In this document: positions 32,768-38,700 of the stretch, piece after piece | Numbering within the stretch: the stretch's first letter is position 1 | How the letters are laid out: each line of letters opens with the position of its first letter | Origin: Lampris incognitus | Taxonomy: Eukaryota; Chordata; Actinopteri; Lampriformes; Lampridae | Assembly (NCBI RefSeq): GCF_029633865.1 | Contig: NC_079219.1 | Location: 18,191,963-18,255,962 of the forward strand | Reading direction: 5' to 3' | Length of the DNA stretch: 64,000 nucleotides | Notes under the pieces: model-generated | Database searches by the model: none | What the model was told of the DNA's origin: nothing | Seen by the model: the letters and a program-made list of their open reading frames with translations, nothing else | Program-made: the position numbers and the translations under genes

Positions 32768-35700
32768 CGTATTTTATCTTAACATGATAAACATTGTCCT
32801 GTACCTCTTGGATCTGTAGTTTCCCATCAGCAGTAACATCATAGGCTGACATGAACCTCTGCTTTAGTTTCTGGACCTGGTCTTCTGTCACTTTCTCCTT
32901 TTGGGACAAAACAGATATATTGCATTAATTGGTTGTTTCAGTACCTGGTCTTTTTCTCTTTTATTTTATCATGGTGCCTCTGGTGTAAAGATAATAAGTT
33001 CGCAAAAAAAAAGGACACAGACTAGCATGAAGCTCACAAAAATGGGATGGAATAACAATTAATAACATCTTAATTTCTGCAGTATGTAAATTAATTGCTT
33101 TCATCTTTTTATAATCAAACATATGGCTGAATAATTGCTGGATGCTTTTTGTTGTTGTTGCAATGGTAACCATGGATACTGATTCTATCTTTAGTTCCGA
33201 AGCCTGCTTTTGGAGCAAACTCCAGGCCACTGTGTCTGTTAAGACTTGCTGACACACACATATCTTTCTAAAACACACAAGGGATGTTTTCACATCTAAC
33301 AGCCATACTTTGCCAGCCATAAATATCACTTCACATTGTAATTATGATGGCATGTGTTAGTGCTATGTTGAAATAGCCCTTAGCCAATAAGAACGACCAG
33401 GATTTCACTCCTACTTAAAATGACCATGGGCGGTCAAAATGACCGTCGGTTTTTAAACTCTATATTCTGTCAAGATAAATACCCAATTGAGATATTAATG
33501 TATTGTATATGTTAGTATGTCTGTTACGAAACGACTGACACTAAAATTAAAATTTTAACAACTATAATACTATTTTTAATAAATTTCAGAGAGACATGGT
33601 CGAACTTGAATAGCAAAATTGAAAAAGTCAAAATATTACCTGAAAAACAAAACGGAAAACACATATTGCTAATCTAACAAATGTAACAAGGCCTATAAAA
33701 CGTGAAATGTAAACAACAAAAAAACTGAAAATAAATATTGAAACAGTCCCAAACAACGACCGGAACTTAAAAACTACTAGAACGACCGTGGGCGGTCATT
33801 TTGACTGCCATTGGTTTTAAACTCTATATCCTGTCAAAAGAAATACCCAATTGAGATTATCAATGCATTACATGTGTTAGTATGTCTCTTAAAAAACGAC
33901 TAGCACCAAAGTTAATATTTTAACAACTTTTAATATTATTTTTCAAACAATTAAAAATGCCCGCTGTCCAAGGCCTGTAAATACTGCAGTGCGTTGGTGG
34001 TAGTCATGGCGCGTCTGAAACCGCGTCTGTAACCAGACATGTTGGCAGTAATCAAAAATCAAGTTTGGACTATTACTCTGCACTGGAGAATGCTATTTTT
34101 TCTAGGACAGAGTAATGAACTTCACGAAGAAAATTATGCGACCAACACACATCATAAATAGTGACATGACGCGCAGGATCACGCGCAAATTACCAGCGGT
34201 CATTTTGACCAATCGTGGTCGTTTTAGGTAGATCTTATAACTTTTTTTGTGCAATTGATCTAAAACTCAAAATATTTTTAACCTGAACTCATTTTAATGC
34301 AAATATATGTAATTTTAGGAGCATTCAGGGAGCAGCAGGTCTGTATCTTTTTTCTTTTTTTTTTCACAAAGTTGTTAAACTTTTAAAATCCAAAACAGTC
34401 ATAATGACCATCTTGGTCGAACGTTCCAATGTAAAGCCTTCCGCCTCGCTCTCTGCTGTCTTGTATCACTCCGCTAAGCCGCTGCCACCAAATGACCGCC
34501 GCGTCGCTCTTCGGCAGTGATGGGCAGAGCAGTTCTTTTCAGTGTACTGAATCATTAGACTCAGTTCATTTAAAAGATTCATTCAAAAGATTTGTTCACG
34601 GAATCATTCAGTGCTTGACCGGACTCCCTACCGCGTAGTCCCACTCACTGAACTGAAACACGGCCGAATGTTCAGTTCAGCTCGCTAACTAGTGAACTGA
34701 GTGGTCGTTCGTGAAGGATAAGCCAGTGAGCTGAAAATGTAGTCGGGGAAAGATACTGTAGCGAATTCGGGGGGGAACCACAGGAACTGCCGCAGCCGGG
34801 ACGCGAACTCGTATCTCCCGCATTGCGGGAGACATCGCTAACTAATCGACTAAAGGGTCCAACCTGTTGTGACTTCTCTTATGTACACTATTGTAGTGTT
34901 ACTATTCGTGGGTTACTAACTTAATCACTATTATATATAAGTACACGGAGACGAGGATGCGGCACAAGTCTGATCTTTACTGACGGAGACATCACACACT
35001 ACTAGGCTCGACCAGTGTATTACAGAACTCAGTAGTGGTGACAGTCCAACACAATCGAGCACCGAGTGCTCGATCCAATACACCACATCCTCTTTTCCTA
35101 CTGAGATGTGGCCTACTCATCAGTTACTTCAACAGTAGACCCTTTACTGAACCATTAACGCTATGGCATCAACACTGAACAAGTCTTTTCTACTTGCATA
35201 CTTCAATGATTAATAAAGCATGTTTTTTAAATGACAGATGACTCTCATTAAACAACATAAACATTTCCTTTTCACATTCTGGTGGTTAGCATGTAAACAT
35301 TTACCTGAATGATCACACAAAAGAACCCTGAGGTTAGTCATTGTATCTGGCAGGGCGCCTAACTGCTCTGCCGCACTTTGTGTAGCACGTGGGTGTACTG
35401 CCTGTAGTCACCGGAGGGGGGTCGTGTGGTGGCAGGTCATGTGGTGGTGAGTCAACTGGCACAGGCGCTTGTGAGGGTGAGGGTTGTACCTCTGAGTCAA
35501 AATGTTCATCACTGTCCGTGTCTCTGAATAGGCTCGGATGTATCTTCCTCAGATGTCGCCTGTTCCTTCTTTGCATCCTCCAGGCCGGTGTCTGCACAGT
35601 GTAGGACCGTGGTTCATCTCGCTGTCGGAGGACATCGGCAGGCTCCCAGCCGCGCCGTGTTTGCATGTGTACGGTGTCTCCTGGGGTCAACACTGGCAGG

Positions 35701-38700
35701 GGCTTTGCACGCTGGTCGTAACGTAGTTTTTGGCGGAACTGCAGGTACTGGATCTTGCTGTGAATGTGCTGTGAGACTGATTGTGTCAGCACAGCACTGG
35801 AGCACGGAAGTGTGCTTCGTAGAACTCTCCCCATCAACATTTGTGCAGGTGATACGTCCAGTCCTGTCACCGGTGTGTTCCTCAGTGACAGCAGCACCAG
35901 ATGTTGGTCAGTGCCGGTCTGCATTGCCTTCTTCAGCGCATGTTTCACTGTCTTTATGGCTCTCTCAGCCATGCCATTTGAAGAGGGAAAACCTGGGTTG
36001 AAGTGTGTGAGCTTGAACTCCCATGAAGCTGCAAATGACTTCATCTCATAGCTGGCAAACGGGACATGGTCACTCACTATCTCCCTAGGAATCCCGTGTC
36101 TGGCAAACACAGACTTCATCTTCTGGATTACTGTGTATGCTGTTTTGTCAGATATGTTGAGCACTTCAGGATATTTGGTTAGGTAATCAACTAACAACAG
36201 GTATGACTGACCGTGTAGCTCGAAGATGTCAGCTCCGACTTTCATCCATGGCAGTTCTGGGACCTGATGCGGCATAAGTGGCTCAGCCTGCTGTTTGGGC
36301 TGTAGCTGCTGGCATTGCACGCACTTTTCCACCATTGCCTCTATATCTCGTGCCATGCCAGGCCAGTAGAGAGACTTTCTTGCTCTGGCTTTTGTGCGCT
36401 GCACTCCTTGGTGTGCAAGATGCAGCTTCTCCAAAATCGTGCTCCTGAAGCTCTGGGGTATGATGATTTTGTCTCCGACCAAGACAATGTCATCTTCCAT
36501 GCTTATAATGTCCTTTACTGTCCAGTAGGCGTGTAGTTTTCTGTCCAAACTTTTCTTTTTCATGGGACAGCCTTTCTTGTGTTTTTCACACACAGCTTGC
36601 AGCACGCTATCTGCTGCCGTTGCTTTCTTTAATTGGCTGAGTGTTTCCTCGCTCAAGGCATCTGTGGCATCCAAGGCATACACAACTCTCTCATCACAAG
36701 GGGTTTCATCTATATGGTCACCTTCTCTGCTAGCTGTAGTGCGTGAGAGTGTGTCGGCAATGTACATGTGCTTGCCTGATGTGTATGTTACACTCAGATC
36801 ATACCTCTGCAGTTGTAAAAGCATACCTTGCAGCCACGCAGGTGCTTTGCTCAGCGGCTTGCGCATGATGACCTCCAGAGGCTTATGATCGGACTGGACA
36901 GTTACTGGTCTGCCGTAGACATACTGGTGGAATCTCTTAGCAGCAAACACTATAGCGAGCAACTCTTTCTCTATCTGTGCGTACCTCTTTTCTGTGTCGG
37001 TGAGCGCTCGTGAGGCATAGCACACTGGGCGGTCGTCCTGCATCAGACAGGCTCCCAGTCCATCCTTTGAGGAGTCTGCTTGTAGAGTGAGAGGCTGCTT
37101 GTGATCGTAGTATCTCAGCACAGGGGCTTGTGTGAGGGTGGTCTTTAGTGCCTTTAGCGCTGAGCTGTGGTGCGGGCACCATTGCCACACTACATCCTTC
37201 TTGAGCAGCTGTCTGAGGGGTGCCGTGAGTGAGGCTTTGTTTGGTATGTATTGCGCTAGGAATTTTGTCATTCCCAGCAGACGTTGGAGACTGTTTGTCT
37301 TCCGGGGTTGGCATGTCGACAATCGCTTTGATCTTTGTGTCGTCAGCTCTCTGTCCTGCTGCTGTGATGACGTGTCCCATGTACTTCACAGTATCAACTT
37401 TAAACTGGATCTTGTCCCTGTTAAATTTCACATGTGCGGTCTTGGCTCTCTCCATTACTTTCTGCAGGATTTCATCGTGTTCCCGCTCTGATGACGCTGC
37501 GATGATCATGTCGTCTGCTATAATGTACACACCTGGGATATCGCCGAAGGTCTCACAGTTCTTTTGTTGAAACACTTCGCTGGCCGATTTGATCCCGAAT
37601 GGGAGTCTGAGGAAGCGGAATTGATGGCGTTCGAACACGACGATCTTCCGAGGGCTGCAGTAGTCCTTGAAGGCTTTCAGAACGTCCTCCATCGATTCGT
37701 CGTCTCCTTCTGAGATGATGGTGAATGTGTTATACACTTCTAGCGCCTCCTCGCCGATAGTGTGAAGCAGAATGGCTATTTTAACCGTCTCTTCCTTATC
37801 CAACGCACCTGAAGCGGTCATGTACAGCTGGCAACGCTGGTCCCATCTTCTCCAGTTTTCTGCGACATTCCCGGTAAGTATCAGCGGTGGTGGCGGCTTG
37901 AACTGTTCCATATTTGTGCTCAGGCTAGCACTTGTTAGCTAGCTGCCTCAGCTACCAGCGAACTCGTTGAAGTACCGCCCTCGAATTATACCGTAACTCC
38001 GTCTTCTGACACCATGTTGTGACTTCTCTTATGTACACTATTGTAGTGTTACTATTTGTGGGTTACTAACTTAATCACTAATATATATATAAGTACACGG
38101 AGACCAGGATGCGGCACAAGTCTGATCTTTACTGACGGAGACATCACACACTACAGGCTAGACCAGTGTATTACAGAACTCAGTAGTGGTGACAGTCCAA
38201 CACAATCGAGCACCGAGTGCTCGATCCAATACACCACACAACCCAAGGGCCCGTACGGGTTCGCGTCCCGGCTGCGGCAGTTCCTGTGGTCGCCCCCCGA
38301 ATTCGCTACATTGGTGTCAGAAGTGGGATACGCGTGGACGCGCTTTGCCGAAGGAGGGGGGTAGTGTAACGTGCATGGATAAGTAGACACGTTGGTCCTT
38401 AGCTAACCGATCGGAAATTTTTAGTCGAGCGGATAGCGATGTCTCCCATGGTGCGGGAGATACGGGTTTGCGTCCCGGCTGCGGCGGTTCCCGCGCTGCC
38501 CCCTGAATTAGCTACAATACCGTTTGCAAACTGAAAGCTGCTATGACAAAGTCATATCCTATTATGTACAGCACGTATATTTTTGCAATACCTAATTAAT
38601 AAATAAAATATTTGGTGCTACTTCCTACGTCATTGTGTGTATGAGTGCGCACGATGCTGCGTACAGTAACGTTAAATGCTAGCCTATGCATACAATATCA

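Follow-up and report, generated by a model that had tools for sequence, protein, structure and literature searches.

The window analysed here is a stretch of 64,000 nucleotides from the forward strand of contig NC_079219.1 (positions 18,191,963 to 18,255,962; assembly GCF_029633865.1) of the fish Lampris incognitus. It contains a small non-coding retroelement split by a gypsy retrotransposon. A preliminary description had read the small element as a complete terminal-repeat retrotransposon in miniature (TRIM) with two direct long terminal repeats (LTRs), hidden by the later gypsy insertion. Several parts of this description were borne out. The CAACC target duplication is read on both sides of the gypsy element, the small element is itself bordered by ATAC on each side, and removal of the gypsy element and one CAACC leaves a TRIM of 381 bp whose left part, the former 'LTR1', measures 175 bp. 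The primer-binding site (PBS) and purine tract ascribed to the 54-nt interior are likewise present. The PBS starts with TGGTGTCAGAAG, found exactly at 38312-38323, one base past the CTACA end, and the purine run AAGGAGGGGGG closes the interior just before the TGTAACG at 38365. The PBS is presumed to be of the Leu-tRNA type.

What did not hold is the pairing of the two LTRs as direct repeats. Comparison of the left part with the LTR profile of the family matched its outer portion on the minus strand (LTR positions 43-152, 108.7 bits) and its inner portion on the plus strand (positions 96-152, 50.0 bits); an outer arm limit drawn by eye at LTR position 31 was superseded by this result. The last two matched bases of the outer arm are found at 38244-38245, on the far side of the gypsy element, and 54 of the 57 inner-arm bases have their complement in the outer arm. 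Direct comparison with the right LTR showed that only its last 57 positions are shared with the left part (86 percent identity), the outer portion of which matches the right LTR in inverted orientation over 98 positions (82 percent identity, E 7e-22). The first 30 nt of the right LTR are without counterpart in the left part, being identical there at 14 of 30 positions, a value equalled or exceeded in 364 of 500 shuffles. The proposal of a complete two-LTR element is not supported, since the left LTR is palindromic and lacks the 5' LTR start. The element carries a single ordinary LTR and terminates on either side in an end of the U5 (unique 5') type (TGTAGC... and ...GCTACA).

Table 1. Positions in the window of the parts of the TRIM and of the gypsy element inserted in it.
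Feature	Position	Strand	Remarks
Left target-site duplication ATAC	34753-34756	.	read directly
Left LTR, outer (inverted) arm	34757-34864	-	inverted copy of LTR positions about 43-152
CAACC, gypsy left target-site duplication	34860-34864	.	read directly
Gypsy 3' LTR	34865-35087	-	3' since reading frames are on the minus strand
Gypsy interior, decayed	35088-38014	-	RVT_1 (part), RNase H, integrase zinc-binding domains
Gypsy PBS word	38003-38014	-	12-nt start
Gypsy 5' LTR	38015-38238	-	paired with 34865-35087
CAACC, gypsy right target-site duplication	38239-38243	.	read directly
Left LTR, inner (direct) arm	38254-38310	+	LTR positions 96-152
Internal region, 54 nt	38311-38364	+	PBS from 38312, purine tract at right end
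Right LTR, 152 bp, TGTAACG...GCTACA	38365-38516	+	with box A and box B motif matches
Right target-site duplication ATAC	38517-38520	.	read directly

The proposal that the element represents a mobile TRIM family was confirmed by searches of the genome. The right half of the element gave at least 78 matches (40 scored of 3326 candidates), and two exact 33-nt segments of the internal region, for which a genome search had been suggested, were found at 61 and 44 places, compared to no matches for a backwards control; the 54-nt internal unit as a whole is also present in other copies. These places supplied an LTR-blind sample, in which copies are picked by the internal pattern so that the left LTR plays no part in the choice. 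Merging of copies identical around the internal region left 58 and 42 distinct copies, 100 in all (the first pattern gives 59 under another merging key), and the requirement for an exact internal segment favours copies with well-kept interiors. Another 48 parsed copies, obtained from similarity-chosen or neighbouring stretches, stand outside the 100 and are counted in the tallies of duplications, palindrome centres, truncations and arm types given below. Ordinary copies with direct LTRs, the 54-nt interior, and matching 4-bp flanks are found at loci L008, L015, L026, and L036. Exact 4-bp duplications include CTAT (L008), ATAT (L015 and L026), and ATAC (L057), and across other copies ATAC, GTAT, ATAT, CTAT, and ATAG occur. 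An exact 4-bp duplication is present in 10 of the 36 single direct copies whose two ends could be read, the permutation mean being 1.9 and none of 20000 permutations reaching the observed number. The family is under 1000 bp in length, non-coding, and carries a PBS and a polypurine tract (PPT) between two LTRs, these being the criteria for a TRIM, and the data support membership of the window element in this mobile family.

The preliminary description had considered such elements less well known in fish. Fish elements of this kind have already been published under the name Helenus, given to TRIMs with a tRNA-like LTR; they include LTR-11_DR of zebrafish and relatives among the ostariophysans (Kojima 2024, PMC10886601). 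Vertebrate members are primed by the 3' end of a His, Leu or Lys tRNA, animal members make 4-bp target duplications, LTR-11_DR is present in thousands of copies and in tandem arrays, and some goldfish copies are very young, about 99.5 percent identical to the consensus (PMC10886601). With the box A and box B motifs of that paper in relaxed form, box A followed by box B at a spacing of 20-45 was found in 41 of 78 LTR copies, compared to 9 of 1560 shuffles and none of the 78 on the opposite strand. ARAGORN recognised no tRNA in the window or in loci L001-L039, and Rfam gave no tRNA match in the stretches searched, the best match of one such search being MIR7526 in L003 (49.7 bits against a gathering score of 110), which is the L003 palindrome read as a hairpin. 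Because neither program recognises a tRNA, only the promoter boxes are supported. The size, the box motifs, the PBS, and the 4-bp duplications fit a Helenus-type element. TTTT is present in just 7 of 78 LTR copies; judging from this, termination of an RNA polymerase III (Pol III) transcript within the LTR would be rare, and transcription may continue into flanking DNA.

The palindromic left end recurs throughout the family. On the 5' side of the 100 LTR-blind copies we found an inverted arm in 40, a direct LTR in 35, a truncated LTR in 19, and none in 6. The inverted arm starts at LTR position 1-4 in 8 of the 40, and these may be separate insertions, leaving a strict count of 32 of 100; the inner arm was also recognised in 29 of these 32. 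Mirrored criteria applied to the 3' side identified an inverted arm in 7 of 100. Head-to-head dimers organised as LTR-interior-palindrome-interior-LTR also exist, two of which (L011 and L031) have ATAC at both outer ends. The 49 palindromic entries are made up of 24 non-dimers that end at LTR position 148 or beyond, 16 dimers, and 9 truncated copies. Four dimers were counted from both sides among these entries, and one of these (L017) falls within the 40 of 100.

Two side observations concern the copies sampled. A second interior type is apparent in L010, L055, L078, and L079, with internal positions 1-20, about 64 extra bases, and then positions 20-54; the dimers L055, L078, and L079 have one short-interior half and one long-interior half. 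The copies at 37.4-44.7 Mb of C21 (L007, L012, L013, L016, L018, L019, L030, L085, and L086) share flanks and array structure, as if the segment holding this Helenus array were itself duplicated, and their presence may reduce the proportion of palindromic copies among the LTR-blind ones.

Target duplications at the outer ends bear on whether the palindromes formed before or after integration. This analysis was confined to palindromic copies with both outer ends recognisable, namely 22 copies (one orientation per dimer) and the window copy. Exact outer duplications were found in 10 of these 23 copies (permutation mean 5.4, P 0.0072) and in 9 of 22 when the window copy was omitted (permutation mean 4.7, P 0.0098). 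The strength of the test is moderate, because ATAC and GTAT are preferred targets and more matches are therefore expected by chance.

On balance we favour the reading that the window holds an old Helenus-type TRIM, moved in trans and inserted as a cDNA with an already palindromic left LTR, and that the gypsy element hit it later. Its helper, acting in trans, would be an LTR retrotransposon with target duplications of 4 bp. According to this model, the Helenus RNA would start at about LTR position 43-49, and the minus-strand cDNA would run off at the RNA 5' end. Its 3' end would then skip the strand transfer to U3 (unique 3') and instead, by means of short homology within a self-complementary stretch, be joined to the 3' terminus of a second minus strand. 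The partner would often be only of strong-stop length and sometimes full length, and would then be copied. The resulting DNA, though defective, would have a U5 end at both termini and be integrated normally. For the window copy, the outer arm of about 43-152 would correspond to strong-stop length, and the gypsy element would have landed later within the palindrome. A related reaction is known for HIV-1 (human immunodeficiency virus type 1) minus strong-stop DNA, in which the 3' end of the minus strand can self-prime instead of transferring. It is a side reaction there, whereas the analogous product here would have been integrated many times and often has arms of different types.

Several observations bear on the individual steps of this model. 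The palindrome centres are concentrated around LTR position 50, 30 of 43 falling within positions 40-70, a count for which there is no formal null. Of 14 5'-truncated copies without an element match within 150 bp upstream (the window copy aside), 5 begin at profile positions 41-49, which may mark the RNA 5' end. When the arms were assigned to sequence types in 39 copies, the two arms differed in 10 of the 15 copies with both arms typed, suggesting that two molecules were joined and that one did not merely fold back on itself. An inverted repeat centred at position 49, with a stem of at least 5 bp, is present in 48 percent of 78 LTRs, and further inverted repeats centred at 35 and 87 are present in 46 and 45 percent. 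Ordinary copies were also examined: in the 18 of 21 LTR-blind direct copies with both LTRs typed, the R-U5 (repeat and U5) types disagree in 11 and match in the other 7, and on average two LTRs of the same element resemble each other about as closely as LTRs taken from different elements. The standard process of LTR retrotransposons yields identical LTRs, as stated by Sabot and Schulman (2007, PMC1950507). The LTR mismatch is weakened as evidence by arrays, old age, and recombination. An apparent rule that ordinary copies have a type B 5' LTR and a type A 3' LTR was traced to the choice of query, since both arrangements occur in the LTR-blind sample. We propose tentatively, as a possibility deserving serious weight, that head-to-head joining is a regular event, that a large minority of copies integrated with two U5 ends, and that ordinary copies mix U5 sequences from different molecules.

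Other observations weigh against a palindromic cDNA. The preference for ATAC and GTAT makes chance matches frequent, and 13 of the 23 copies are without an exact outer match, among them L046, L076, and L049 (GTAT/ATAC) and the dimers L052 (ATAT/ATAC), L078 (GCAG/ATAC), and L099 (GTAT/GTGA). These flanks are as separate insertions or decay would give, and some of the copies may be composite insertions. The positions of the centres are blurred by the self-complementarity of this region, where the profile finds a match on either strand. Starts at 8-40 or 57-115 are seen in the remaining 9 of the 14 truncated copies, arm typing fails in 24 of 39 copies, and the position-49 hairpin folds no better than shuffles in the five minus-strand segments analysed (z -1.0 to +0.6). 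The arms of the window copy are also unequal (43 compared to 96), which calls for asymmetric switching or for the subsequent loss of sequence at the centre.

A potential concern is whether the palindromes stem from independent insertions of two oppositely oriented elements, or from one element inserted in the LTR of another, subsequently trimmed by deletions. Arrays in which neighbours are nested or inverted are frequent at the loci obtained, the inexact outer flank pairs are compatible with such an origin, the arms that begin at LTR position 1-4 may be whole inverted LTRs, and in the bivalve TRIM study (PMC6934838) differences between left and right repeats are ascribed to recombination between elements. 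Independent insertions do not, however, readily account for the excess of inverted arms on the 5' side (40 compared to 7 on the 3' side of 100 copies), for outer ends that duplicate the same target above the permutation level, or for centres that are concentrated rather than spread, and we consider this explanation unlikely, though far from negligible. Fold-back replication or inversion within an ordinary resident copy would place the origin of the palindrome after integration. The unequal arms of the window copy suggest rearrangement at the centre, and palindromes are unstable, but a post-integration event is not expected to leave an LTR U5 end beside an ATAC or GTAT target at the outer border, nor to yield the 24 non-dimers among 49 entries that end at position 148 or beyond; we regard such an origin as improbable. 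A complete TRIM with two ordinary LTRs, of which the left one has diverged, would have the PBS, the purine tract, and the ATAC on both sides that are present here. This reading is hardly credible, as the 5' LTR start is missing from the left part, the outer 110 bp of which match the LTR in inverted orientation at 108.7 bits, contradicting a diverged ordinary LTR.

The domains of the nested gypsy element lie in two overlapping reading frames, and its two LTRs show 96.9 percent identity. Being nested within the TRIM, it is the younger of the two; the best other full-length matches of the TRIM, among the first dozen listed, are 85-89 percent identical. The 12-nt PBS start is common to the gypsy element (38003-38014, minus strand) and the TRIM (38312-38323, plus strand). 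Despite this, the gypsy element was set aside as a candidate helper: it is probably not the helper of the TRIM, because its target duplication is 5 bp compared to 4 bp for the TRIM.

Comparison with known systems indicates what is shared and what is not. The published Helenus elements (PMC10886601) are similarly short and non-coding, with box A and B in the LTR, a PBS, a purine tract, 4-bp duplications, high copy number, and tandem arrays, but are described with two LTRs, whereas in about one-third of the copies sampled here an inverted arm replaces the ordinary 5' LTR. The plant TRIM Cassandra, with 5S rRNA sequence in its LTR, shares a Pol III-type promoter, tandem arrays, a PBS, and a PPT, but its promoter is 5S-derived, and 'inverted' in the available part of that paper refers to polymerase chain reaction (PCR) primers rather than to inverted copies (PMC7215508). 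The biv-TRIM elements of bivalves are also animal TRIMs with tandem arrays and left and right repeats that sometimes differ; in the portion of the report seen, inverted repeats and palindromes are placed in the inner domain, with no inverted 5' repeat, and the differing repeats are attributed to recombination (PMC6934838). The template-switching complexes of Triticeae are similar in that abnormal switching produces complex copies inserted as a unit, but the words 'inverted' and 'palindrom-' do not occur in the accessible part of the paper, and two complexes are tabulated beside 400 LTR retrotransposon insertions (PMC1950507). The words 'palindrom-', 'inverted', 'hairpin', and 'head-to-head' are absent from the main text of PMC10886601, and we found no paper on palindromic LTRs in TRIMs among the open-licence papers listed. 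Helenus is known; as far as the literature searched shows, its palindromic left end and the frequency of this end are undescribed.

Integrase normally joins one U3 end and one U5 end. If copies of the Helenus-type family were repeatedly integrated with two U5 ends, this would point to strand transfer to U3 being unnecessary for integration. Failed strand transfers would then leave a fossil record open to counting across the whole genome. Such a family could also account for inverted-repeat loci to which annotation might give the name of foldback elements or miniature inverted-repeat transposable elements (MITEs). The organisation of the family also suggests that methods based on detection of paired LTRs would miss many Helenus copies.

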